Positions 49,148-58,480 of a DNA stretch of 64,000 bases are shown piece by piece. Position numbers and translations under genes: made by a program. Positions within the stretch are counted from its first letter, which is position 1. Each line of letters opens with the position of its first letter. Below the pieces are notes generated by a model that made no database searches, was not told the DNA's origin, and worked only from the letters and a program-made list of their open reading frames with translations. Source of the DNA: Arenimonas oryziterrae DSM 21050 = YC6267 (GTDB lineage Bacteria; Pseudomonadota; Gammaproteobacteria; Xanthomonadales; Xanthomonadaceae); assembly GCF_000420545.1 (NCBI RefSeq), contig NZ_ATVD01000001.1, positions 434,001-498,000 of the forward strand, given 5' to 3'.

Positions 49148-49900
49148 CTAGAGCGATACGGACAACGCAGCGATTTCCTCGCCGCCGAGTTCGCGCCACT
49201 GGCCTTTGGCCAGGTCGCCCAGCACCAGCGGGCCGATCGCCACGCGGATCAGGCGCAACACGGAAATATCGAACGCCGCCAGCAGGCGGCGGATCTGCCG
49301 GTTCCTGCCCTCGTCGAGCACGATCTCCAGCCACGCGTTCTTTTCGCCGCTGCGCAGCAGGCGCACGGACTTGGCCGACATCCTGACTCCGTCGATGTCG
49401 ACGTCGACCTGCAAGGCCGCGATCGTGCCCGCATCGGGGATGCGATCGACCTGCACGTGATAGGTCTTGTCGGGTCCGCGTTCGGGATCGGTGATGGTCG
49501 CCGCCCACGCGGGATCGTTGCAAAACAGCAGCAGGCCTTCGCTGGCCTTGTCCAGGCGCCCCACGGGCGCGATCCACGGCAGCCCGGCGCCGTCGAAACA
49601 GCGGTAGACCGTATCGCGTCCCTGCTCGTCTTTCGCGCTCGTGACCAGACCGCGCGGCTTGTTGAGCATGAGCACGCGACGTTCGACGACGGCGACCGTC
49701 TCGCCCGCGACGCGAATCGTGTCGACGCCCTGACGCACGGGAAATTCCGGATCGCGCACCACGCGTCCGTTGACGCTCACGCGGCCTTCGCGCACCCAGC
49801 CGGCCGCTTGCGTGCGCGAGGCCAAGCCCTGCTTCGACAGCACGCGTGCGATGCCGTGACGGGGGCTGACGGCGTCGGAGTTTTTTTTCTGCATCCGCAT
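49148..49900 (-). CDS. RsuA/RluB/E/F-family pseudouridine synthase
   Basis: The 250-residue protein has an N-terminal S4 RNA-binding domain (RVLSKQGLASRTQAAGWVREG, about 19-65). The RsuA-family catalytic domain has MLNKPRGLVTSAKDEQGR and GRLDKASEGLLLF, containing the catalytic aspartate, and ends with EGRNRQIRRLLAAF. It isomerises a uridine in rRNA; the exact target (RluB, RluE, RluF or RsuA type) cannot be assigned by eye. It converges with kbl, 7 bases apart. An ATG two codons in (49894) is also possible. Confidence 0.9.
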   Translation of the reverse strand: MRMQKKNSDAVSPRHGIARVLSKQGLASRTQAAGWVREGRVSVNGRVVRDPEFPVRQGVDTIRVAGETVAVVERRVLMLNKPRGLVTSAKDEQGRDTVYRCFDGAGLPWIAPVGRLDKASEGLLLFCNDPAWAATITDPERGPDKTYHVQVDRIPDAGTIAALQVDVDIDGVRMSAKSVRLLRSGEKNAWLEIVLDEGRNRQIRRLLAAFDISVLRLIRVAIGPLVLGDLAKGQWRELGGEEIAALSVSL

Positions 49901-50071
49901 AGCATCGCCGAACGTATGTCCGATGGCTATGCACGGAGTCGCGATGTCGCAATCGCGAAGCCGGCATGGCCCTCCCCGATGTGCAGACAGCGTGATCGTC
50001 CGGACATCGATCCAAGCAGATTTAGTTCCGGTTCACCCTGCCATCACCGCGCGCTGAAGAGCATTACCCCC

Positions 50072-51040
50072 ATGAGCGAGACCGATTCTTCCGCCACCTC
50101 CCCCGTCTGGCGTCGCGCAAGCGTGGCCCTGCTGCGCTGGTTCGATACCGGCCAGGACGTCGTCGTCGATGCCACGCAGGCCGACCGCGTCGACTGGCTG
50201 CGCGTCATTCCCTTCATCGGCCTACACCTGGCCTGTCTGGCAGTGTTTGTCGTCGGCGTGTCCTGGTTCGCCATCGCCGTGGCCATCGCGCTGTACGCCC
50301 TGCGCATGTTCGCGATCACCGGCTTCTATCATCGCTATTTCTCGCACAAGGCGTTCCGCACCTCGCGACCGGTGCAGTTCGCGTTCGCGGTACTCGGCGC
50401 CGCCAGCGTGCAGCGCGGCCCCTTGTGGTGGGCGGCGCATCATCGCCACCACCATCGCCATGCCGATACCGAACACGACATCCATTCCCCGCGCCATGGC
50501 TTCTGGCGCAGCCACATGACCTGGTTCCTGACGCCGCGCGGCTTCGGCACCAACCACGACGCGATCAAGGACCTCACGCGGTTCCCGGAACTGCGACTGC
50601 TCGACCGTTTCGACATCCTGGTGCCGGCTTTGCTGGCGGTGGGGCTCTACTGGCTCGGCGATACGCTGCAGTCGCAAGCGCCGGCGCTCGGCACGAACGG
50701 TCCGCAGTTGCTGGTCTGGGGCTTTTTCGTGTCGACGATCGTGTTGTTTCACATCACGGTCACCATCAATTCGCTCGCGCACCGCTGGGGCAGCCGCCGT
50801 TTCGCCACGCGCGACGACAGCCGCAACAACTGGCTGCTGGCCCTGCTGACGTTCGGCGAAGGCTGGCACAACAACCATCACCACTTCCCCGGCTCGGCGC
50901 GCCAAGGCTTCACCTGGTGGGAAATCGACCTGACCTACTACGCCCTGCGTTTCCTGTCCTGGTTCGGCCTGGTCTGGGATCTGAAGTCGGTGCCGCCAGC
51001 CTTGCGCAAGCCCACTGCGGCCGCACTGCGGGCGTCCTGA
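50072..51040 (+). CDS. Membrane fatty acid desaturase (acyl-CoA desaturase type)
   Basis: The 322-residue protein has four hydrophobic segments and the three histidine boxes of the di-iron desaturases: HRYFSH (87-92), HHRHHH (123-128) and HNNHHH (266-271). It resembles delta-9 acyl desaturases and probably introduces a double bond into acyl chains. It is the first gene of a seven-gene operon, followed after 1 base by the FAD oxidoreductase. The upstream part of the open frame overlaps the pseudouridine synthase gene and is not coding. Confidence 0.9.
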   Translation: MSETDSSATSPVWRRASVALLRWFDTGQDVVVDATQADRVDWLRVIPFIGLHLACLAVFVVGVSWFAIAVAIALYALRMFAITGFYHRYFSHKAFRTSRPVQFAFAVLGAASVQRGPLWWAAHHRHHHRHADTEHDIHSPRHGFWRSHMTWFLTPRGFGTNHDAIKDLTRFPELRLLDRFDILVPALLAVGLYWLGDTLQSQAPALGTNGPQLLVWGFFVSTIVLFHITVTINSLAHRWGSRRFATRDDSRNNWLLALLTFGEGWHNNHHHFPGSARQGFTWWEIDLTYYALRFLSWFGLVWDLKSVPPALRKPTAAALRAS

Positions 51041-51041
51041 C

Positions 51042-52283
51042 ATGCGGATCGCCATCATCGGCAGCGGCATCGCTGGCCTCGGCGCCGCCTGGTTGCTGTC
51101 GCGCGAGCACGAGGTCGTGCTGTTCGAAAAACAATCGCGCCTCGGCGGCCATACGCACACGCACACCGTGCATCAGGCCGGGCGCGAGTACGCGATCGAC
51201 TCCGGCTTCATCGTGCACAACCGCCTGAACTATCCGCTGCTGACCCGGCTGTTCTCCGAGCTGGGTGTCGCCACGCAGGCGACGACCATGGGCTTTTCCG
51301 TACAGGACGCGCGCAGCGGACTGGAATACAACGCGACCAATCTCGATGCGATGTTCTGCCAGCGGCGCAACCTGCTCTCGCCGGCCTTCATCCGCATGGT
51401 GCGCGACATCCTGCGTTTCTATCGCGAATGCGGTGCGCTGCTGCAGGAGCCTGGCGACGGCCCGACCCTCGCCGACTACCTGCATGCCAATCGCTACTCG
51501 GCGATGTTCATCGACAAGCATCTGGTGCCGATGGCGTCCGCGCTGTGGTCCTCGCCCTCGGCGACGATCATGCAATTCCCGGCCAAGTATCTCGTCCGTT
51601 TCATGGACAACCACCACATGCTGCAGGTCGACGAGCGCCCGGAATGGCGCGTGGTCACCGGCGGTTCGTCGAGCTACATCCGCGCGCTCGAACGCGACTG
51701 GGCCGTGGACGTGCGCCTGGACTCGGCGGTGCGGCAAGTCCGGCGCGCGCCCGAGGGCGTGTTGATCGCGACGGCGCAGGGCGAGGAACGTTTCGATCAG
51801 GCGGTGTTCGCCTGTCACAGCGACGAGGCCTTGGCCCTGCTGGCCGAACCGACGCCGGCCGAGGTCGACGTGCTGGGCGCGATCCCGTATCAGGACAACG
51901 ATACCGTCCTGCATACCGATGCTCGTCTCCTGCCGACCCGCCGCAAGGCCTGGGCGGCGTGGAACGCCTATCTGCCGGCCGAGCCCGGGGCCGAGTGCAC
52001 GGTGAGCTACAGCATGAACCTGCTGCAGTCGCTGGCGTCGCCCGAGCCTTTCGTGGTCACGCTCAATCGCAGCGCCGACATCGCACCGGACAAGATCCTG
52101 GCGCGCATGCGCTATCGCCATCCCGTGTACACGCACGCCAGTGTCGCTGCACAAGGCCGGCGCGACGCGATCAATGGTGTCGATCGGCTGTGGTATGCCG
52201 GCGCGTATTGGGGTTTCGGCTTCCATGAAGACGGCCTGCGCAGCGGCGTCGATGTCGCGCGCGCGCTCGGAGCGAACTGGTGA
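51042..52283 (+). CDS. FAD-dependent oxidoreductase (amine-oxidase fold)
   Basis: The 413-residue protein begins [18 protein letters not shown], the FAD-binding dinucleotide fold (GSGIAGLG at 7-14). [12 protein letters not shown] and [22 protein letters not shown] follow, and the C-terminal [22 protein letters not shown] is an FAD contact. Members of this group regularly neighbour DUF1365 and CFA-like genes. It overlaps DUF1365 by GTGA and is inferred to oxidise a lipid acyl chain or its methylated product. Confidence 0.9.
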
Positions 52284-53071
52284 CGCCGGCCCCGTTCAAG
52301 AGCGCGATCTACGAAGGCTGGGTTCGGCATCGCCGCTATTCGCCGCGTCCGCACGATTTCCGCTATCGGCTGTTCCAGTTGTATCTGGATCTGGACGAGC
52401 TTGACGACGTGTTCAAGCATCGCTGGTTCTGGTCGGTGGATCGTCGCAACCTCGCTCAGATCCGTCGCCGCGACTGTTTCGGCGATCCGGCCCTGCCGAT
52501 CGGACAGGCAGTGCGCGATCGTGTCGAAGCGGACCTGGGGACACGGCCGACCGGCCCGATCCGCATGCTCACCCATGGCCGCTATTTCGGCGTGACCATG
52601 AATCCGGTGAGCTTCTACTACGGCTTCGCCGACGACGGACAGACCCTGGAATGGGTGCTCGCTGAAATCACCAACACGCCCTGGGGCGAACGCCACGCCT
52701 ATGTCCTGCCCGTCGCCGAGGCGACCGCGCTGGGACGCACCCTGCACTGGCAGTTCGACAAGCGCTTCCATGTCTCGCCCTTCCTGCCGATGCAGCGGCA
52801 GTACCAGTGGGCGTTCGAGATTCCCGGCGAGCATCTGCGCGTGCACATGGACGTCCTGGCGGGCGCGGATCGCGAATTCGATGCCACCCTGGTGCTCGAT
52901 CGCCATGAACTGAACGCCCACACGCTGGCTTCATGCCTGACGCGCTATCCCTGGCTTACCGCTAAGGTCGCGGTGGGGATTTATTGGCAGGCCGCCCGTT
53001 TGTGGCTCAAGCGCATTCCTTTCCAACCCCACCCGAAAACCCTCGCCGTACCACCGGCCCGGAGCCCCTGA
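52280..53071 (+). CDS. DUF1365 protein
   Basis: The 263-residue protein has the DUF1365 signature [33 protein letters not shown] and [17 protein letters not shown], then FHVSPFLPM. No catalytic residues are assigned in the literature that I recall. The GTG start overlaps the FAD oxidoreductase stop. DUF1365, the FAD oxidoreductase and a CFA-like methyltransferase form a widespread trio. Confidence 0.92.
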
Positions 53072-54348
53072 TGAGCAGTCCCGCCGAATCCCTGAGCGCC
53101 ACCACCCGCAGCGAGGACGTCTACGGCAGCCTGACCCGCCTGCTGCGGCGTCGCCTGCTTGAAGGCCTGTCCGGACTGCGCGGCGGCCAGCTGCGCATCG
53201 TCGACGCGCTTGGCGAGACCGTCGTCGGTCAGGCCACGGGACCCGATCCGGTGCGCGCCACCTTGCAGGTTCACGATGGCGGGTTCTATCGCGCCGCCGC
53301 CAGCAACGGTTCCGTCGGCGCCGGCGAGTCGTATATGGACGGCCTGTGGAGCTGCGACGACCTCGTCGCCCTGGTGCGCCTGCTGGTTCGCAACCGCGAT
53401 CGTCTCGACCGCCTGGAATCGGGCATGGCGCGTTTTGGCGGCTGGGCGATGCGCATGCTGCATGCGTTCCGGCGCAATACCCGCCGCGGCAGCCGCAAGA
53501 ACATTGCCGCGCACTACGACCTGGGCAATCCCTTGTTCCGCCTGTTCCTCGACGAGAACATGATGTACTCCTCGGCGATCTTCACTCGCGCCGACGACAC
53601 GCTCGAAGTCGCGTCGCGTCGCAAGCTCGACCGCATCTGCGAGAAGCTCGAATTGCAGCCGTCGGACCATCTCGTCGAAATCGGCACCGGCTGGGGCGGA
53701 ATGGCCCTGCACGCAGCGCGCCAATACGGCTGCCGCGTCACCACGACCACGATTTCGAAAGAACAGCATGCGCTGGCCAGCGAGCGTATCGCTGCCGCCG
53801 GCCTGTCGGATCGGGTGACGGTCCTGCTCGAGGACTATCGCGATCTCACCGGCACCTACGACAAGCTGGTCTCGATCGAAATGATCGAAGCGATCGGGCA
53901 CCAGTACCTGGACACGTATTTCGACAAGTGCGCCTCCCTGCTCAAGCCCGAGGGCCTGGGCCTGGTACAGGCGATCACGATCGAGGATCACCGCTACCAG
54001 CAGGCGCTGGATTCGGTCGATTTCATCAAGCGCCATGTGTTCCCCGGCAGCTTCATTCCCAGCGTGAGCGCGATGGTGGAAGCCGCGGGCCGCGCAGGCC
54101 AGCTGCGCCTGATCAATCTCGAGGATTTCGGTCCGAGCTATGCGCAGACGCTGCATCACTGGCGTCGCCGGTTCTTCGCCAATCTCGAGAAGGTGCGCGA
54201 GCTGGGCTACGACGAGCGCTTCGTGCGTCTGTGGGAATTCTATCTTTGCTATTGCGAGGGCGGTTTCATCGAACGCTCGATCAGCGATGTGCATCTGTTG
54301 CTCGCGCGTTCGGGCAACCGGCGCGAGCAGTTCCTTCCAGGTTTGTGA
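53071..54348 (+). CDS. CFA-like methyltransferase 1 (cyclopropane synthase family)
   Basis: The 425-residue protein has a basic N-terminal domain and a SAM-methyltransferase domain with HYDLGNPLFRLFLDENMMYSS (148-168) and VEIGTGWGG (202-210). Compared by memory with E. coli Cfa, the bicarbonate-site Cys139 aligns with serine (MMYSSAIF) and His266 aligns with glutamine (LVQAITIED). The glutamate of the site is kept (IEMIEAIG). It is therefore a CFA-family enzyme that may add a methyl group without making a cyclopropane ring. It overlaps DUF1365 by one base. Confidence 0.88.
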   Translation: MSSPAESLSATTRSEDVYGSLTRLLRRRLLEGLSGLRGGQLRIVDALGETVVGQATGPDPVRATLQVHDGGFYRAAASNGSVGAGESYMDGLWSCDDLVALVRLLVRNRDRLDRLESGMARFGGWAMRMLHAFRRNTRRGSRKNIAAHYDLGNPLFRLFLDENMMYSSAIFTRADDTLEVASRRKLDRICEKLELQPSDHLVEIGTGWGGMALHAARQYGCRVTTTTISKEQHALASERIAAAGLSDRVTVLLEDYRDLTGTYDKLVSIEMIEAIGHQYLDTYFDKCASLLKPEGLGLVQAITIEDHRYQQALDSVDFIKRHVFPGSFIPSVSAMVEAAGRAGQLRLINLEDFGPSYAQTLHHWRRRFFANLEKVRELGYDERFVRLWEFYLCYCEGGFIERSISDVHLLLARSGNRREQFLPGL

Positions 54349-54355
54349 TCAGGAC

Positions 54356-54904
54356 ATGAGCATGTGGCGCAAGGCCGCGAACGTGATTGGATTCCAATTG
54401 GTCTGGTTCGGCTGCATGGTCGGCGCCGGCAACGGCCTGCCCTGGCTGGGACCGCTGGCCTGCGCGATCTTCGTCATCGCCACGCTCGCTGCGGGCGGGC
54501 AACGGCGCGCGGACTTGCGTCTGCTACTGGTCGCGCTGCCGCTGGGCATTGCGCTCGACAGCGCCTTCGCGTGGTCGGGCTGGCTGCGCTATGCCGAGGC
54601 CTGGCCGTGGATCACCGTCGCGCCGCTATGGATCGCGGCCTTGTGGGCGGCCTTTGCGATGACGCTGAATCATTCGATGGCCTTCCTGCGCGGACGCTTC
54701 TGGCTGGCGGCGACCTTGGGCCTGATCGGCGGACCGCTGGCCTACTGGTCGGCCGCTGGTGCGTTTGATGCGGTGAGTTTCGGCGCGCCCGTGGCCTGGG
54801 TCCTGATCGCCTTGGCCCTGGCCTGGGGCGCGTTGATCCCGCTGATTTTCCGGCTCGATGCGAACCTCGCGAGCCGACTGCACCACGAAGGAAATGCCGC
54901 GTGA
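54356..54904 (+). CDS. DUF2878 membrane protein
   Basis: The 182-residue protein has about five or six membrane segments and begins MSMWRKAANVIGFQLVWFG. It has the DUF2878 features LDSAFAWSGWLRY and FAMTLNHSMAFLRG. It lies seven bases after CFA-like 1 and overlaps the DUF1295 gene by GTGA. A membrane scaffold or lipid-enzyme partner role is an inference from the operon. Confidence 0.85.
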   Translation: MSMWRKAANVIGFQLVWFGCMVGAGNGLPWLGPLACAIFVIATLAAGGQRRADLRLLLVALPLGIALDSAFAWSGWLRYAEAWPWITVAPLWIAALWAAFAMTLNHSMAFLRGRFWLAATLGLIGGPLAYWSAAGAFDAVSFGAPVAWVLIALALAWGALIPLIFRLDANLASRLHHEGNAA

Positions 54905-55680
54905 GCATGCTGTCGCTGTTGCTGTTGATCTGGGGCGTCTCGGCGCTGGGCATGGCCGCGATCTGGGCGGTTTCGATGCGCGTCAACAACGTCGGCTACG
55001 TCGATGTCGCCTGGGCGGGACTCATGGCGGTCGCGGCGTTGCTGGTCGGCGCGTTCGGCGAAGGCGCCGAGGTGCCGCGTGGACTCGTCGCCCTGTTCGG
55101 CAGCCTCTGGGGCACGCGCCTTTGCCTGCATCTGCTGCAGCGCGTGCTGCACGAATCCGAGGACGGTCGTTACCAGGCCCTGCGCGCGGCCTGGAACGGC
55201 AGTCGCGGCAAGTTCTTCCTGTTCTTCCAGGCACAGGCGCTGATCGTGACCTTGTTCGCCCTGCCCTTTATCGCCGCCGCCAGCCGCCACGACAACAGCT
55301 TCGACATCTGGATGATCGCGGCGATCGCGACCTGGTTGCTGTCGGTCGGCGGCGAAAGCCTCGCCGATCATCAGCTCGCGCGCTTCCGTGCCGACCCGGG
55401 CAATCGCGGCAAGTCCTGTCGCGCTGGCCTGTGGTCCTGGTCGCGGCATCCGAACTATTTCTTCGAATGGCTGCACTGGTTCAGCTACCTGTTTCTCGCG
55501 ATCGGCAGCCCGACGGTCTGGCTCGCCCTGGTCGGGCCGGTGCTGATGTTCGCTTTCCTGTACCGCGTCAGCGGTATTCCCTGGACCGAGGCCCAGTCGC
55601 TGCGCACGCGCGGCGACGACTATCGCCGATACCAGCAGCAAGTCAGCGCTTTCTTTCCCTGGCCGCCCAAGCGCGGCTGA
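54901..55680 (+). CDS. DUF1295 (steroid-reductase-like) membrane protein
   Basis: The 259-residue protein has five or six membrane helices. The C-terminal signature SCRAGLWSWSRHPNYFFEWLHWFSY ends with YRVSGIPWTEAQSLRTRGDDYRRYQ. DUF1295 is related to the steroid 5-alpha-reductase/ICMT fold, whose members reduce lipid double bonds or methylate prenyl groups. It starts with GTG at 54901, overlapping DUF2878. Confidence 0.88.
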   Translation: MSMLSLLLLIWGVSALGMAAIWAVSMRVNNVGYVDVAWAGLMAVAALLVGAFGEGAEVPRGLVALFGSLWGTRLCLHLLQRVLHESEDGRYQALRAAWNGSRGKFFLFFQAQALIVTLFALPFIAAASRHDNSFDIWMIAAIATWLLSVGGESLADHQLARFRADPGNRGKSCRAGLWSWSRHPNYFFEWLHWFSYLFLAIGSPTVWLALVGPVLMFAFLYRVSGIPWTEAQSLRTRGDDYRRYQQQVSAFFPWPPKRG

Positions 55681-55696
55681 CCCGCACGGAGTTTCC

Positions 55697-56728
55697 ATGT
55701 CCCTGATCGATCTTTGCGAACGCGGCCTGATCCCCGACCCGATCACGCGTCTCGGCATCCGCCGTCTGTGCACGCAGCGTCTGCGCGAGGAAGGCGCGTT
55801 CGACCTCGACCAGGCCGATCGTCGTTTCCGCGATTTGCTGCGCGGACTGCGCCATAGTCCGATCGCCATCGAAACGGCGGCCGCGAACGAACAGCACTAC
55901 GAGGTGCCGACGCGGTTTTTCCAGCTATGCCTGGGCAAGCGCCTGAAGTATTCGAGCTGCTACTACGCACGCGGCGACGAAACCCTGGAGCAGGCCGAAG
56001 ACGCGATGCTCGCCCTCTACGGCGAACGCGCCGAACTCGCCGATGGCCAGCACATTCTCGAGCTGGGCTGTGGCTGGGGATCGCTGACCCTATGGATGGC
56101 CGAGCGTTACCCGAATGCGCGCATCACGGCCGTGTCCAATTCCAACACGCAGCGCGAGCACATCGAAGCGGTCTGCCGCGAACGCGGTTTCGACAACGTC
56201 GCGGTGGTCACCTGCGACGTCAACCGCCTGGAACTGGTGGCCGGGCAGTTCGATCGCTGCGTCTCGATCGAGATGTTCGAGCACATGCGCAACTACGACA
56301 CGTTGTTCACGCGCATCGCGTCCTGGCTCAAGCCGGGCGGGAAATTGTTCGTGCACATCTTCTGCCATCGCAGCCTGATGTATCCGTTCGAGACCCAGGG
56401 CGATGACAACTGGATGGGCAAGTATTTCTTCACCGGCGGGCTGATGCCGTCGGCCGACACCCTGCTGCATTTCCAGCAGCACCTGGCGATCGAGCAACGC
56501 TGGCTGTTGCCGGGCACGCACTACGAAAAAACCTCGAACCACTGGCTCGCCAACCAGGACCGGCATCGCGAAGAAGTCCTGGCCGTGCTGACCGCCGCCT
56601 ACGGCGCCGACGAAGCCGCGCGCTGGCACCAGCGCTGGCGCATGTTCTGGATGGCGTGTGCGGAGCTGTTTGGCTACGACGGCGGTCGCGAATGGCTGGT
56701 GGCGCACTACCGCTTCGCGAAAGCCTGA
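55697..56728 (+). CDS. CFA/coclaurine N-methyltransferase-like enzyme 2
   Basis: The 343-residue protein is another CFA-superfamily methyltransferase: HYEVPTRFFQLCLGKRLKYSSC, LELGCGWGSLTLWMAERYPNA, and SIEMFEHMRNYDTLF. Its C-terminal part (HRSLMYPFETQGDDNWMGKYFFTGG) is that of the coclaurine N-methyltransferase-like branch, not of cyclopropane synthases. The two methyltransferases of this operon are therefore of different kinds. It starts 16 bases after DUF1295 and ends the operon. Confidence 0.88.
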   Translation: MSLIDLCERGLIPDPITRLGIRRLCTQRLREEGAFDLDQADRRFRDLLRGLRHSPIAIETAAANEQHYEVPTRFFQLCLGKRLKYSSCYYARGDETLEQAEDAMLALYGERAELADGQHILELGCGWGSLTLWMAERYPNARITAVSNSNTQREHIEAVCRERGFDNVAVVTCDVNRLELVAGQFDRCVSIEMFEHMRNYDTLFTRIASWLKPGGKLFVHIFCHRSLMYPFETQGDDNWMGKYFFTGGLMPSADTLLHFQQHLAIEQRWLLPGTHYEKTSNHWLANQDRHREEVLAVLTAAYGADEAARWHQRWRMFWMACAELFGYDGGREWLVAHYRFAKA

Positions 56729-56737
56729 GCCGCGTCC

Positions 56738-57202
56738 TTATTTCTTCTTCTTGCCGTCCGCCGGTGGCGTTTCCGCGGGCGGCGGCGCGGCGGCGGCCCC
56801 GGTGGGCTTGCCGGTGGCGACGGTGATGCCCTTGGCTTTCATCCAGGCATCGAATTCCTCGGCCGTCATGCGCTTGCCGTTCTGGTTCATGTCGAAGCGC
56901 CAGGGCGTGTTGTCGTCCTTGGTCTTGGGCACGTAGCCGGCGGCATTGGTGGTGGCCGCAGGCGCGTTGCTGCGCGCGGCAGGCGTGCTCGGCACTACGC
57001 GGGCGGCTTCGGCACGGGCGCGCGTCAGGATGTCCTGTGCGCTCAGGCAGGAGGTCGGAGCGACCTCGCTCCAGCGCATCTCGGGCGCGGCGACATTCAG
57101 GCCGCGGGCGATGGCCGGATCGGCAGGACGGCAATTCGCAGCGAGGCTGGCGCCGCTGAGCAGCAGCGACGAGGCCGCGAGGGCGATGGCGTGAATTTTC
57201 AT
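56738..57202 (-). CDS. Periplasmic protein with an EF-hand-like motif
   Basis: The 154-residue protein has a signal peptide (ending ASLAANC), two cysteines, an Ala/Thr/Pro-rich linker, the motif WRFDMNQNGKRMTAEEFDAWM near residue 100, and a Pro/Ala/Lys-rich tail ending KKKK. The motif has the loop spacing D-x-N-x-N-G-x5-E of an EF-hand-like calcium site. The family is not recognised. It ends convergently with the lipid operon, 9 bases apart. Confidence 0.7.
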   Translation of the reverse strand: MKIHAIALAASSLLLSGASLAANCRPADPAIARGLNVAAPEMRWSEVAPTSCLSAQDILTRARAEAARVVPSTPAARSNAPAATTNAAGYVPKTKDDNTPWRFDMNQNGKRMTAEEFDAWMKAKGITVATGKPTGAAAAPPPAETPPADGKKKK

Positions 57203-57324: not shown

Positions 57325-58377
57325 TTAGTTCTGGACGTTCAGCTCGGTGCGACGGTTGCGAGCGCGACCTTCCTTGGTGTCGTTGGTGTCGATCGGCTTC
57401 AGTTCACCGAAACCATTCGGACCCACGAGACGGCCGGAGTCGATGCCGTGACCGGTCAGGTAGTCGTACACGACGCGGGCGCGACGCTCGGACAGACCCT
57501 GGTTGTACTGCTCGGCGCCGACGGAGTCGGTGTGGCCGGCAACTTCAACGCGCAGCTGCGGGTACTTGGCGAGGATGGACACGGCCTCGTCGAGGATCGC
57601 CACGGCGTCAGGACGCAGGGTGTCCTTGTCGAAGTCGAAGTTCACGCCCTTCAGATCGATCGTCAGCGGAACCGGGCAGCCGTCCGGGCCGATGGCCTGG
57701 CCAGCGGAGGAACCCGGGCACTTGTCGTTGCAGTTGTTCACGCCGTCGCCGTCGTCGTCCATGTCGGCGCAGGTCTGCTGCGGAGCGTCCGGGGTAACAA
57801 CCGGAGCAGCCGCGGCACCCAGCGGGATCAGGGCGGCGATGCCAGCGTAGGCATCGGTGTAATGGTCGTCGGTACCCGCGCCGCCATCGTCCATGTCGAA
57901 GCGCGCACCGGCTTCACCACGGATCGACAGGCCGCCGATCTTCTTCTGGATGCCCACGCCCAGGATACCGAGCAGGTTCGTACCGACGCGGCTGCCCAGG
58001 ATCGGGTTCAGACCGCCGTCGCGGTGACGCTGCGCGCCCAGACCAGCGGCGATGTACGGGTTCCAGTCACGGCCTTCGTTGACGAAGTGGTAGCGACCGA
58101 CAGCCGACAGGCTCATCAGTTCCCAGTTGCGGTCAACGCGCTTGACGAAATCCGGATTCGTGTGGGTCAGCTCGGCATCAATCGAGAAATTTTCGGTGAT
58201 GAACTTGCCAAAGCCGAGGGTGCCATACACTTCGTCGGTGACATTGCGGTCACGGTCGAAACCGGTCACGCCACCGCCCGCGGTGATGTACCAGCGGTCG
58301 TCATACGTCTGAGCCATTGCGGACTGGGCCAAGCTCATGGCACCGAGAAGGGCGCAGCACAGAAGCTTCTTCTTCAT
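57325..58377 (-). CDS. OmpA-family outer-membrane protein
   Basis: The 350-residue protein has a signal peptide (MKKKLLCCALLGAMSLAQSAMA) and an eight-strand-type barrel (about 25-190). An acidic thrombospondin type 3-like calcium linker (DMDDDGDGVNNCNDKCP, about 208-225) leads to a C-terminal OmpA peptidoglycan-binding domain with VNFDFDKDTLRPDA, VEVAGHTDSVGAEQYNQGLSE and RRTELNVQN. It tethers the outer membrane to the cell wall. I chose the ATG at 58377 with GGAG six bases upstream. Confidence 0.93.
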   Translation of the reverse strand: MKKKLLCCALLGAMSLAQSAMAQTYDDRWYITAGGGVTGFDRDRNVTDEVYGTLGFGKFITENFSIDAELTHTNPDFVKRVDRNWELMSLSAVGRYHFVNEGRDWNPYIAAGLGAQRHRDGGLNPILGSRVGTNLLGILGVGIQKKIGGLSIRGEAGARFDMDDGGAGTDDHYTDAYAGIAALIPLGAAAAPVVTPDAPQQTCADMDDDGDGVNNCNDKCPGSSAGQAIGPDGCPVPLTIDLKGVNFDFDKDTLRPDAVAILDEAVSILAKYPQLRVEVAGHTDSVGAEQYNQGLSERRARVVYDYLTGHGIDSGRLVGPNGFGELKPIDTNDTKEGRARNRRTELNVQN

Positions 58378-58480
58378 GTTCAACTCCATTGCACTAGTAA
58401 GAAAAGGTCACTTCGGTAATCGGCCCGGCGTGTGCCATGCCATACCTCATTAACGTCCGAAAGCCTTGGGCGTTAACTTG

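Follow-up and report, generated by a model that had tools for sequence, protein, structure and literature searches.

A 64,000-nucleotide stretch of Arenimonas oryziterrae DSM 21050 = YC6267 (contig NZ_ATVD01000001.1, positions 434,001 to 498,000; hereafter the window, whose coordinates are used unless marked otherwise), from a host genome of 3.09 Mb, carries seven intact plus-strand open reading frames (ORFs) arranged head to tail from 50072 to 56728. The first, des (50072..51040; PF00487 FA_desaturase, 1.4e-23), encodes a predicted stearoyl-CoA (SCD1)-type desaturase, probably delta-9. It is followed by ufaD (51042..52283; Amino_oxidase PF01593, 1.3e-21, and PF13450), a putative flavin adenine dinucleotide (FAD)-dependent desaturase of methylated acyl chains; ufaO (52280..53071, GTG start; PF07103, 1.2e-79), a DUF1365 protein predicted to be O2-dependent and furan-forming; ufaM (53071..54348; CMAS, 2.3e-82), a predicted S-adenosylmethionine (SAM)-dependent methyltransferase of cis-unsaturated acyl chains; a DUF2878 gene (54356..54904; PF11086, 5.5e-39); a DUF1295 gene (54901..55680, GTG start; PF06966, 4.2e-69), whose product is a predicted membrane ene-reductase; and fufM (55697..56728; CMAS, 5.7e-43), encoding a second methyltransferase that resembles coclaurine N-methyltransferase (CNMT) and is a probable furan-ring methylase. 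The successive junctions are a 1-base gap, a 4-base overlap, a 1-base overlap, a 7-base gap, a 4-base overlap, and a 16-base gap. A preliminary description of this DNA had placed a seven-gene operon at exactly these coordinates, with no gap above 16 bases and several 1–4-base overlaps; every junction agrees, and Pfam returned each family that it had named. This spacing, together with a counterpart in Stenotrophomonas maltophilia, makes one transcript for all seven genes likely. We propose that these genes very probably make up a complete furan fatty acid (FuFA) pathway, inducible by stress, that acts on the acyl chains of membrane phospholipids.

Furan fatty acids are lipid antioxidants that reach people through plants and fish, and few makers have been tested. 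FuFA stress defence has so far been worked out mainly in purple photosynthetic bacteria, where UfaM methylates 18:1, UfaD desaturates the methylated chain, the DUF1365 protein UfaO builds the furan with oxygen taken from O2, and a second methyl group is attached by FufM (PMC7380195). Arabidopsis homologues carry the names UFAMD1, UFAO1, and FUFM1 (PMC10940516), and in Chlamydomonas the singlet-oxygen induction of CFA1, CFA2/CPLD27, one DUF1365 gene, and one DUF1295 gene needs SAK1 (PMC4067076), genes matched to those of the window by family name only. From experiments on relatives, we infer the catalytic steps from UfaM through FufM. Des would supply monounsaturated chains, probably delta-9, whose double bond UfaM would methylate with SAM to give a methyl-branched alkene, not a cyclopropane. 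UfaD, with FAD and with O2 as the proposed acceptor, would introduce a conjugated double bond; UfaO would add O2-derived oxygen and close the furan ring; and FufM would methylate the ring to the dimethyl form. DUF1295 would act as a probable NADPH ene-reductase of the pathway and DUF2878 as an accessory component, with transcription probably starting from an extracytoplasmic function (ECF)-type promoter at 49890-49916. The double-bond position set by the desaturase, the resulting ring position, the roles of DUF1295 and DUF2878, and the identity of the sigma factor are guesses, whereas gene order, gene families, the active-site signature, linkage, and the promoter-like site are read directly from the DNA. 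The expected product is probably a monomethyl-furan and probably also a dimethyl-furan fatty acid, and it can be named as furan rather than cyclopropane because gene 4 carries the UfaM active site. The furan hint of the preliminary description followed the right branch. The sequential desaturation, methylation, and oxidation of acyl chains that it predicted fits the sequence evidence as regards the three reaction types, but the order was incomplete, since UfaD desaturates after methylation and UfaO inserts O2 (PMC7380195).

Pfam assigns both methyltransferases to CMAS, the S. maltophilia counterparts are named CfaS1 and CfaS2 (PMC11832516), and the genome holds no other Cfa-like match at E <= 1e-50, all of which would suit an operon in which two CFA synthases, fed by the desaturase, make cyclopropane (and methyl-branched) fatty acids. 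We consider such a product very improbable. On the evidence of its residues and clade, gene 4 is a UfaM-type enzyme, not one that synthesises cyclopropanes. In an alignment numbered by E. coli Cfa, 17 canonical Cfa proteins (48–58% identical to the E. coli enzyme) have Cys139 in 17/17, Gly236 in 16/17, His240 in 17/17, and His266 in 17/17. UfaM proteins from furan loci (restricted to 380–460 aa; 135 used of 139) carry Glu/Ala/Gln at 236/240/266 in 135/135 and keep Cys139 in only four. In gene 4 the corresponding residues are S168, E270, A274, and Q300, so that the Cfa His266 and its neighbours Gly236 and His240 are absent, with Q300, E270, and A274 in their stead. Glu/Ala/Gln recurs in four of 24 further CMAS proteins, one being the window gene again and the other three lying inside the UfaM clade. 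Mycobacterial MmaA4 likewise has Glu at the Gly236 position. At 284.6 of 600 bits and 279 of 400 bits, gene 4 falls under the curated cut-offs of both CFA equivalog models. In a tree of 45 UfaM and 25 FufM rows drawn at random plus the two window proteins (other_L306, a duplicate of the window gene, was excluded), it is nested in the UfaM clade, which holds 46 UfaM rows and the three further CMAS proteins and has an SH-aLRT support of 100 by a quick method.

Glu239, His266, and Tyr317 of Cfa hold the catalytic bicarbonate that accepts the ring-closure proton (PMC11387697, PMC9821293), and loss of the His266 ligand would account for the methylated alkene that UfaM yields. With H266-to-Q, G236-to-E, and H240-to-A replacements in every UfaM examined and the original residues retained in Cfa, and with the UfaM and Cfa clades separate, cyclopropane synthesis was rejected as the function of this operon; it would moreover leave UfaD and UfaO without a role. 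Three residues thus distinguish UfaM from cyclopropane synthase, which makes many ‘Cfa’ annotations correctable. As a separate observation, the Arenimonas genome is without a canonical cyclopropane synthase, gene 4 being its only Cfa-like match at the threshold given above, and a genome of the same family (G031) has both kinds.

Window genes 2–4 are adjacent UfaD, UfaO, and UfaM homologues, and gene 3 is the only DUF1365 match in the genome. UfaO matches were found in 92 of 299 Pseudomonadota genomes; 11 lay in loci already covered, and 80 of the 81 others were examined (G067 was left out). In these 80 UfaO loci, ufaD adjoins ufaO in all 80, ufaM lies within 8 kb of ufaO in 70, the three genes follow one another strictly as ufaD-ufaO-ufaM on the same strand in 67, and DUF2878 comes after ufaM in 24. 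An Aeromonas cluster likewise has DUF2878 after a cfa gene (PMC10012899). Some UfaO matches in the genome survey contain internal stops. The ufaD product matches LkcE (6f7l, 1.7e-39). The cofactor of UfaO has been described as unknown (PMC7380195). Its AF2 model is beta-rich (pLDDT 93.7); a fold search returned nitrobindin as the best, though weak, match (E 0.015) and nothing at 0.001 or better, and a profile search of the PDB returned only sperm lysin (E 0.75). Nitrobindin is a haem-binding protein.

Proteins resembling FufM, which score at least 292 bits against no more than 109 for the next class, occur in 19 of the 299 genomes, plus one fragment. UfaO is present in 18 of these 19 and in 74 of the 280 genomes without FufM (Fisher 2.5e-9, not corrected for kinship). 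Neighbourhoods were compared across 98 FufM loci, comprising the window, 18 genomes, and 80 named records, which were chosen by similarity to gene 7 and do not represent a rate over bacteria; L074, on the same contig as L036, was removed from all counts, and L052, the FufM fragment of G217, stands outside the 98. Counted on either strand and with flanks often short, DUF1295 is present in 83 loci, ufaO in 69, ufaM in 69, ufaD in 66, des in 56, and DUF2878 in 40. All seven genes stand in window order in 29 of the 98 loci, window included (in L084 fufM is in two pieces), and 18 further loci keep the order of six genes without DUF2878. Fragmentary or split copies of fufM or ufaO (G217:C1:6453788-6454105, L084, L108, L113, and L275) possibly reflect decay or assembly errors. 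A DUF1475-family gene lies within 3 kb of fufM in 16 of the 98 loci (L099, L103, L106, L108, L109, L111-L114, L120, L123, L126, L127, and L130, with weak or distant matches in L091 and L124), in records titled Verrucomicrobia, Cytophagaceae, Pedobacter, and others, and may be another family belonging to the FuFA pathway.

Gene 7 falls in a separate FufM clade with support 100 in the quick-method tree (FufM rows restricted to 330–370 aa; 83 used of 98). Its nearest named relatives are a gammaproteobacterial metagenome-assembled genome (MAG) at 83%, an Arenimonas MAG at 80%, and Oleiagrimonas, Rehaibacterium, and Chiayiivirga at 75%. The dimethyl step is a probable assignment for this gene by family and co-occurrence. 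The closest solved structure is CNMT (6gkv, 2.3e-76), and plant CNMT-family enzymes work on alkaloids, points that would favour a pathway ending at the monomethyl furan, with gene 7 a CNMT-like N- or head-group methyltransferase. This is unlikely in our judgement, given that, going by record titles, homologues of gene 7 accompany ufa genes across several phyla and that 18 of the 19 genomes with such a homologue carry UfaO. Moreover, AtFUFM1/LIME1 is 37.9% identical to FufM (PMC10940516) and Chlamydomonas CFA2 is annotated as a coclaurine N-methyltransferase (PMC4067076), which suggests that FufM is probably of CNMT type itself.

The DUF1295 subfamily (E <= 1e-20) occurs in 17 of the 19 FufM genomes versus 11 of the other 280 (Fisher 1.6e-18, kinship again uncorrected). 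Three of those 11 (G091, G147, and G293) have DUF1295 within 5 kb of ufaO, so the protein seems tied to the pathway and not to FufM alone. A DUF1295 gene lies directly upstream of fufM in 76 of the 98 FufM loci and is found in four of the 80 UfaO loci. The C-terminal motif RHPNYF of the protein, at the putative cofactor site, is 99% conserved (n=85). The AF2 model (pLDDT 96.7) was matched by Foldseek to delta-14-sterol reductase (4quv, E 3.1e-3) and steroid 5-alpha-reductase 7bw1 (1.8e-2), both at probability 1.00, to steroid 5-alpha-reductase 7c83, and then to ICMT; a profile search gave 7c83 (3.8e-5), AtTam46 (8xku, 1.1e-4), ICMT (4a2n, 2.9e-4), and 7bw1 (3.7e-4). The modelled fold family includes both NADPH reductases and SAM methyltransferases, and either cofactor would fit. 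A general requirement for DUF1295 in the second methylation was considered and ruled out, as R. sphaeroides formed dimethyl-FuFA when given only the R. palustris FufM (PMC7380195).

A fold resembling SRD5A and sterol reductases would also suit an enzyme that saturates methyl-alkene chains, yielding methyl-branched saturated acids as an alternative product, and a C=C reductase could use the product of either UfaM or UfaD. We view this role as possible but doubtful: the furan pathway would be drained, and DUF1295 accompanies FufM rather than UfaM (76/98 FufM loci against 4/80 UfaO loci). FuFA oxidation yields enediones (dioxoenes), and steroid 5-alpha-reductases reduce enones. Together these suggest, as a guess, that DUF1295 reduces spent FuFA, namely the enedione arising from oxidation by singlet oxygen or radicals. 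Such a step could belong to a scavenge-and-repair cycle in which dimethyl-furan chains take up singlet oxygen or radicals and become reactive enediones, DUF1295 converts these to a harmless diketone, and the desaturase shifts the ring along the chain, a scheme that we offer only tentatively and think rather improbable as a whole. If the repair idea is true, DUF1295 would be, to our knowledge, the first enzyme with a role on oxidised furan fatty acids. In several phyla this enone-reductase-like membrane protein is encoded next to fufM, and a family member is co-induced in Chlamydomonas (PMC4067076).

Gene 1 aligns with Acyl-CoA desaturase 1 (4ymk, residues 42-310, 2e-24), and its histidine-box residues H87, H92, H124, H127, H128, H266, H269, and H270 are 98–100% conserved in an alignment of 58; the genome contains four further FA_desaturase matches. 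If gene 1 is a delta-9 enzyme, the furan ring would lie nearer the carboxyl than in 9M5-FuFA. We know of no description in bacteria of ring-shifted positional isomers arising from a desaturase.

Upstream of the operon, a divergent S4/pseudouridine synthase gene occupies 49148-49900. An ECF-sigma-like promoter element, TGCATCC-N16-CGTA, lies on the plus strand at 49890..49916, 155 bases 5′ of the first gene, and is the single match in the window, on both strands, to the pattern TG[CG]?ATCC-N15-19-CGTA. Visual inspection of three upstream regions first suggested this pattern, and its test was post hoc, on the set that includes them. Of 145 regions upstream of the pathway, 32 contain it, compared with 0.42 after base shuffling and 1.7 expected from whole-locus density. 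Among 34 close-relative loci (the window, L034-L037, L053-L084, and L096, where the upstream region is present) it is exact in 21 and at one mismatch in six more. The window element, a putative ECF-type promoter, is the same as in relatives with an adjacent sigma gene. The R. sphaeroides-type element, which we take to be TGATCC-N15-19-TA[AT]G, was absent from all 145 upstream regions, and sigma-70-like sites numbered 0 versus 1.0 expected in shuffles. A clade-specific element, GGTTCAC-N5-CATCAC, lies on the plus strand at 50030..50047, 24 bases 5′ of the first gene, and is possibly an operator or leader element; G[GA]TTCAC-N-ATCAC occurs in five of the 145 regions (the window, L053-L055, and L057), with a background of 0.002 per kb.

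Searches with profiles built from relatives detected no sigma factor, ChrR, MerR-B12 regulator, or lipocalin in the 64-kb window, in line with the earlier remark that no sigma factor or ChrR lies beside the operon; an apparent lipocalin match was a shadow frame that the profile search did not confirm. The absence of sigma factor and ChrR is local, as many relatives have both near the pathway. In counts from the profile searches, both lie near the pathway core in 38 of 178 loci (11/98 FufM loci, 27/80 UfaO loci), and MerR-B12 regulators in 3/98 and 16/80, respectively. Of the 98 FufM loci, 38 (e.g., L067, L078, and L035) have a lipocalin gene no more than 3 kb from the pathway genes, and in 24 of those 38 it directly follows fufM. 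A review counts FuFA genes in the core sigmaE-ChrR regulon of alpha- and gammaproteobacteria (PMC6852236).

An ECF sigma gene, a short Cupin_7 (ChrR-like) gene, and a Lipoprotein_15 gene lie together at G000:C1:90.2-91.3 kb (L320:5712-7523), and this sigma and Cupin_7 pair is the likeliest candidate for the controller of the operon. The sigma factor (C1:90731-91213) scores 118 bits against operon-linked sigmas, the best of eight, the next reaching 86; at about 32% identity to them, no orthology is claimed. The short Cupin_7 protein matches the ChrR profile only in its cupin part, at positions 106-174 of 213, and scores 28.7 bits against TIGR02451 (cut-off 124.5). Two TGCATCC-N-CGTA sites occur at C1:90-91 kb, one inside the sigma gene and the other 47 bases ahead of Met43, the preferred start of the Lipoprotein_15 ORF that lies downstream (the longest frame begins before the site). 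At the 3′ end of the operon, the opposite strand carries a small ORF that Pfam does not match (56738-57202) and then an OmpA-family gene (57325-58389).

Several observations weigh against a complete, stress-inducible FuFA pathway or parts of it. The assignments of genes to UfaM, UfaD, UfaO, and FufM depend on family, order, and signature. Overexpression of Halomonas UfaM in E. coli gave a methyl-alkene and yet cyclic fatty acids too (PMC12089945), for which the cfa gene of the E. coli host can account. The sufficiency of FufM alone in R. sphaeroides, noted above, is joined by 13 FufM loci with at least 1.2 kb of upstream sequence and no DUF1295 nearby; Foldseek gave only modest matches for DUF1295, with nothing at E <= 0.001, and ICMT and AtTam46 are also among its structure or profile matches. 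Genome-wide, TGCATCC-N15-18-CGTA numbers nine versus five for a reversed control, so most genomic sites are probably background and the pattern alone defines no regulon, and no good match to it precedes the candidate sigma gene. The operon and its surroundings hold 10 terminator-like sites, compared with 4.3 in shuffles (sd 2.2), and five of the 10 are on the plus strand inside operon genes. Finally, the sigma-Ec/ChrR system of S. maltophilia affects tolerance of superoxide and not of singlet oxygen or hydrogen peroxide (PMC11832516), which tells against a purely singlet-oxygen role.

The S. maltophilia cluster smlt2375-2367 comprises a hypothetical gene, desaturase, FAD oxidoreductase, hypothetical gene, CfaS2, two inner-membrane hypotheticals, CfaS1, and a lipocalin, and from the desaturase through the second Cfa its order is that of the window; it differs in having the upstream hypothetical gene and the lipocalin, with rpoE-chrR-chrA beside it, while the window is without sigma factor, ChrR, and lipocalin (PMC11832516). 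The layout des-ufaD-ufaO-ufaM-DUF2878-DUF1295-fufM-lipocalin is seen in two Stenotrophomonas loci (L067 and L078), where divergent genes for a sigma factor and ChrR lie upstream. In a chrR mutant, smlt2375-2367 rose 165- to 697-fold (RNA-seq done once) and reverted in chrR rpoEc, and its deletion in the chrR mutant brought menadione tolerance back nearly to the wild-type level (Ku et al. 2025, PMC11832516). Its authors read the cluster as cyclopropane synthesis and membrane-lipid modification (PMC11832516). The present analysis suggests that the sigma-Ec/ChrR phenotype of Stenotrophomonas is a furan and not a cyclopropane phenotype. We found no paper joining ‘furan fatty acid’ with ‘Stenotrophomonas’, nor any on the layout in a single operon, the association with DUF1295, the signature of the active site, or this reinterpretation, although our coverage of the literature was incomplete and absence from print is not established.

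E. coli Cfa belongs to the same superfamily as genes 4 and 7 but differs in catalytic residues and clade. Halomonas sp. YLGW01 has a consecutive ufaD/ufaO/ufaM trio, as in the window, and its UfaM gave 11-methyloctadec-12-enoate in E. coli; unlike for the window, the available part of that report mentions no FufM, DUF1295, or desaturase (PMC12089945). The pathway of R. palustris and R. sphaeroides draws on the same enzyme families as the window, including a FufM-type second methylase (PMC7380195). RPA2571-2570-2569 of R. palustris is ufaD-ufaO-ufaM, in the order of window genes 2–4, with fufM apart (RPA0924), whereas the window has all four enzymes in one operon; in R. sphaeroides ufaD and ufaO lie in RSP1091-1087 with ufaM elsewhere, and the accessible text describes no fufM there (PMC7380195). 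In contrast to Rhodopseudomonas and Rhodobacter, the window operon is headed by a desaturase and includes DUF2878 and DUF1295, two families that become tied to the FuFA pathway. The whole pathway is predicted in one block, in Lysobacterales and beyond; with the ECF/ChrR link already known, this is a known pathway in a new, complete arrangement.

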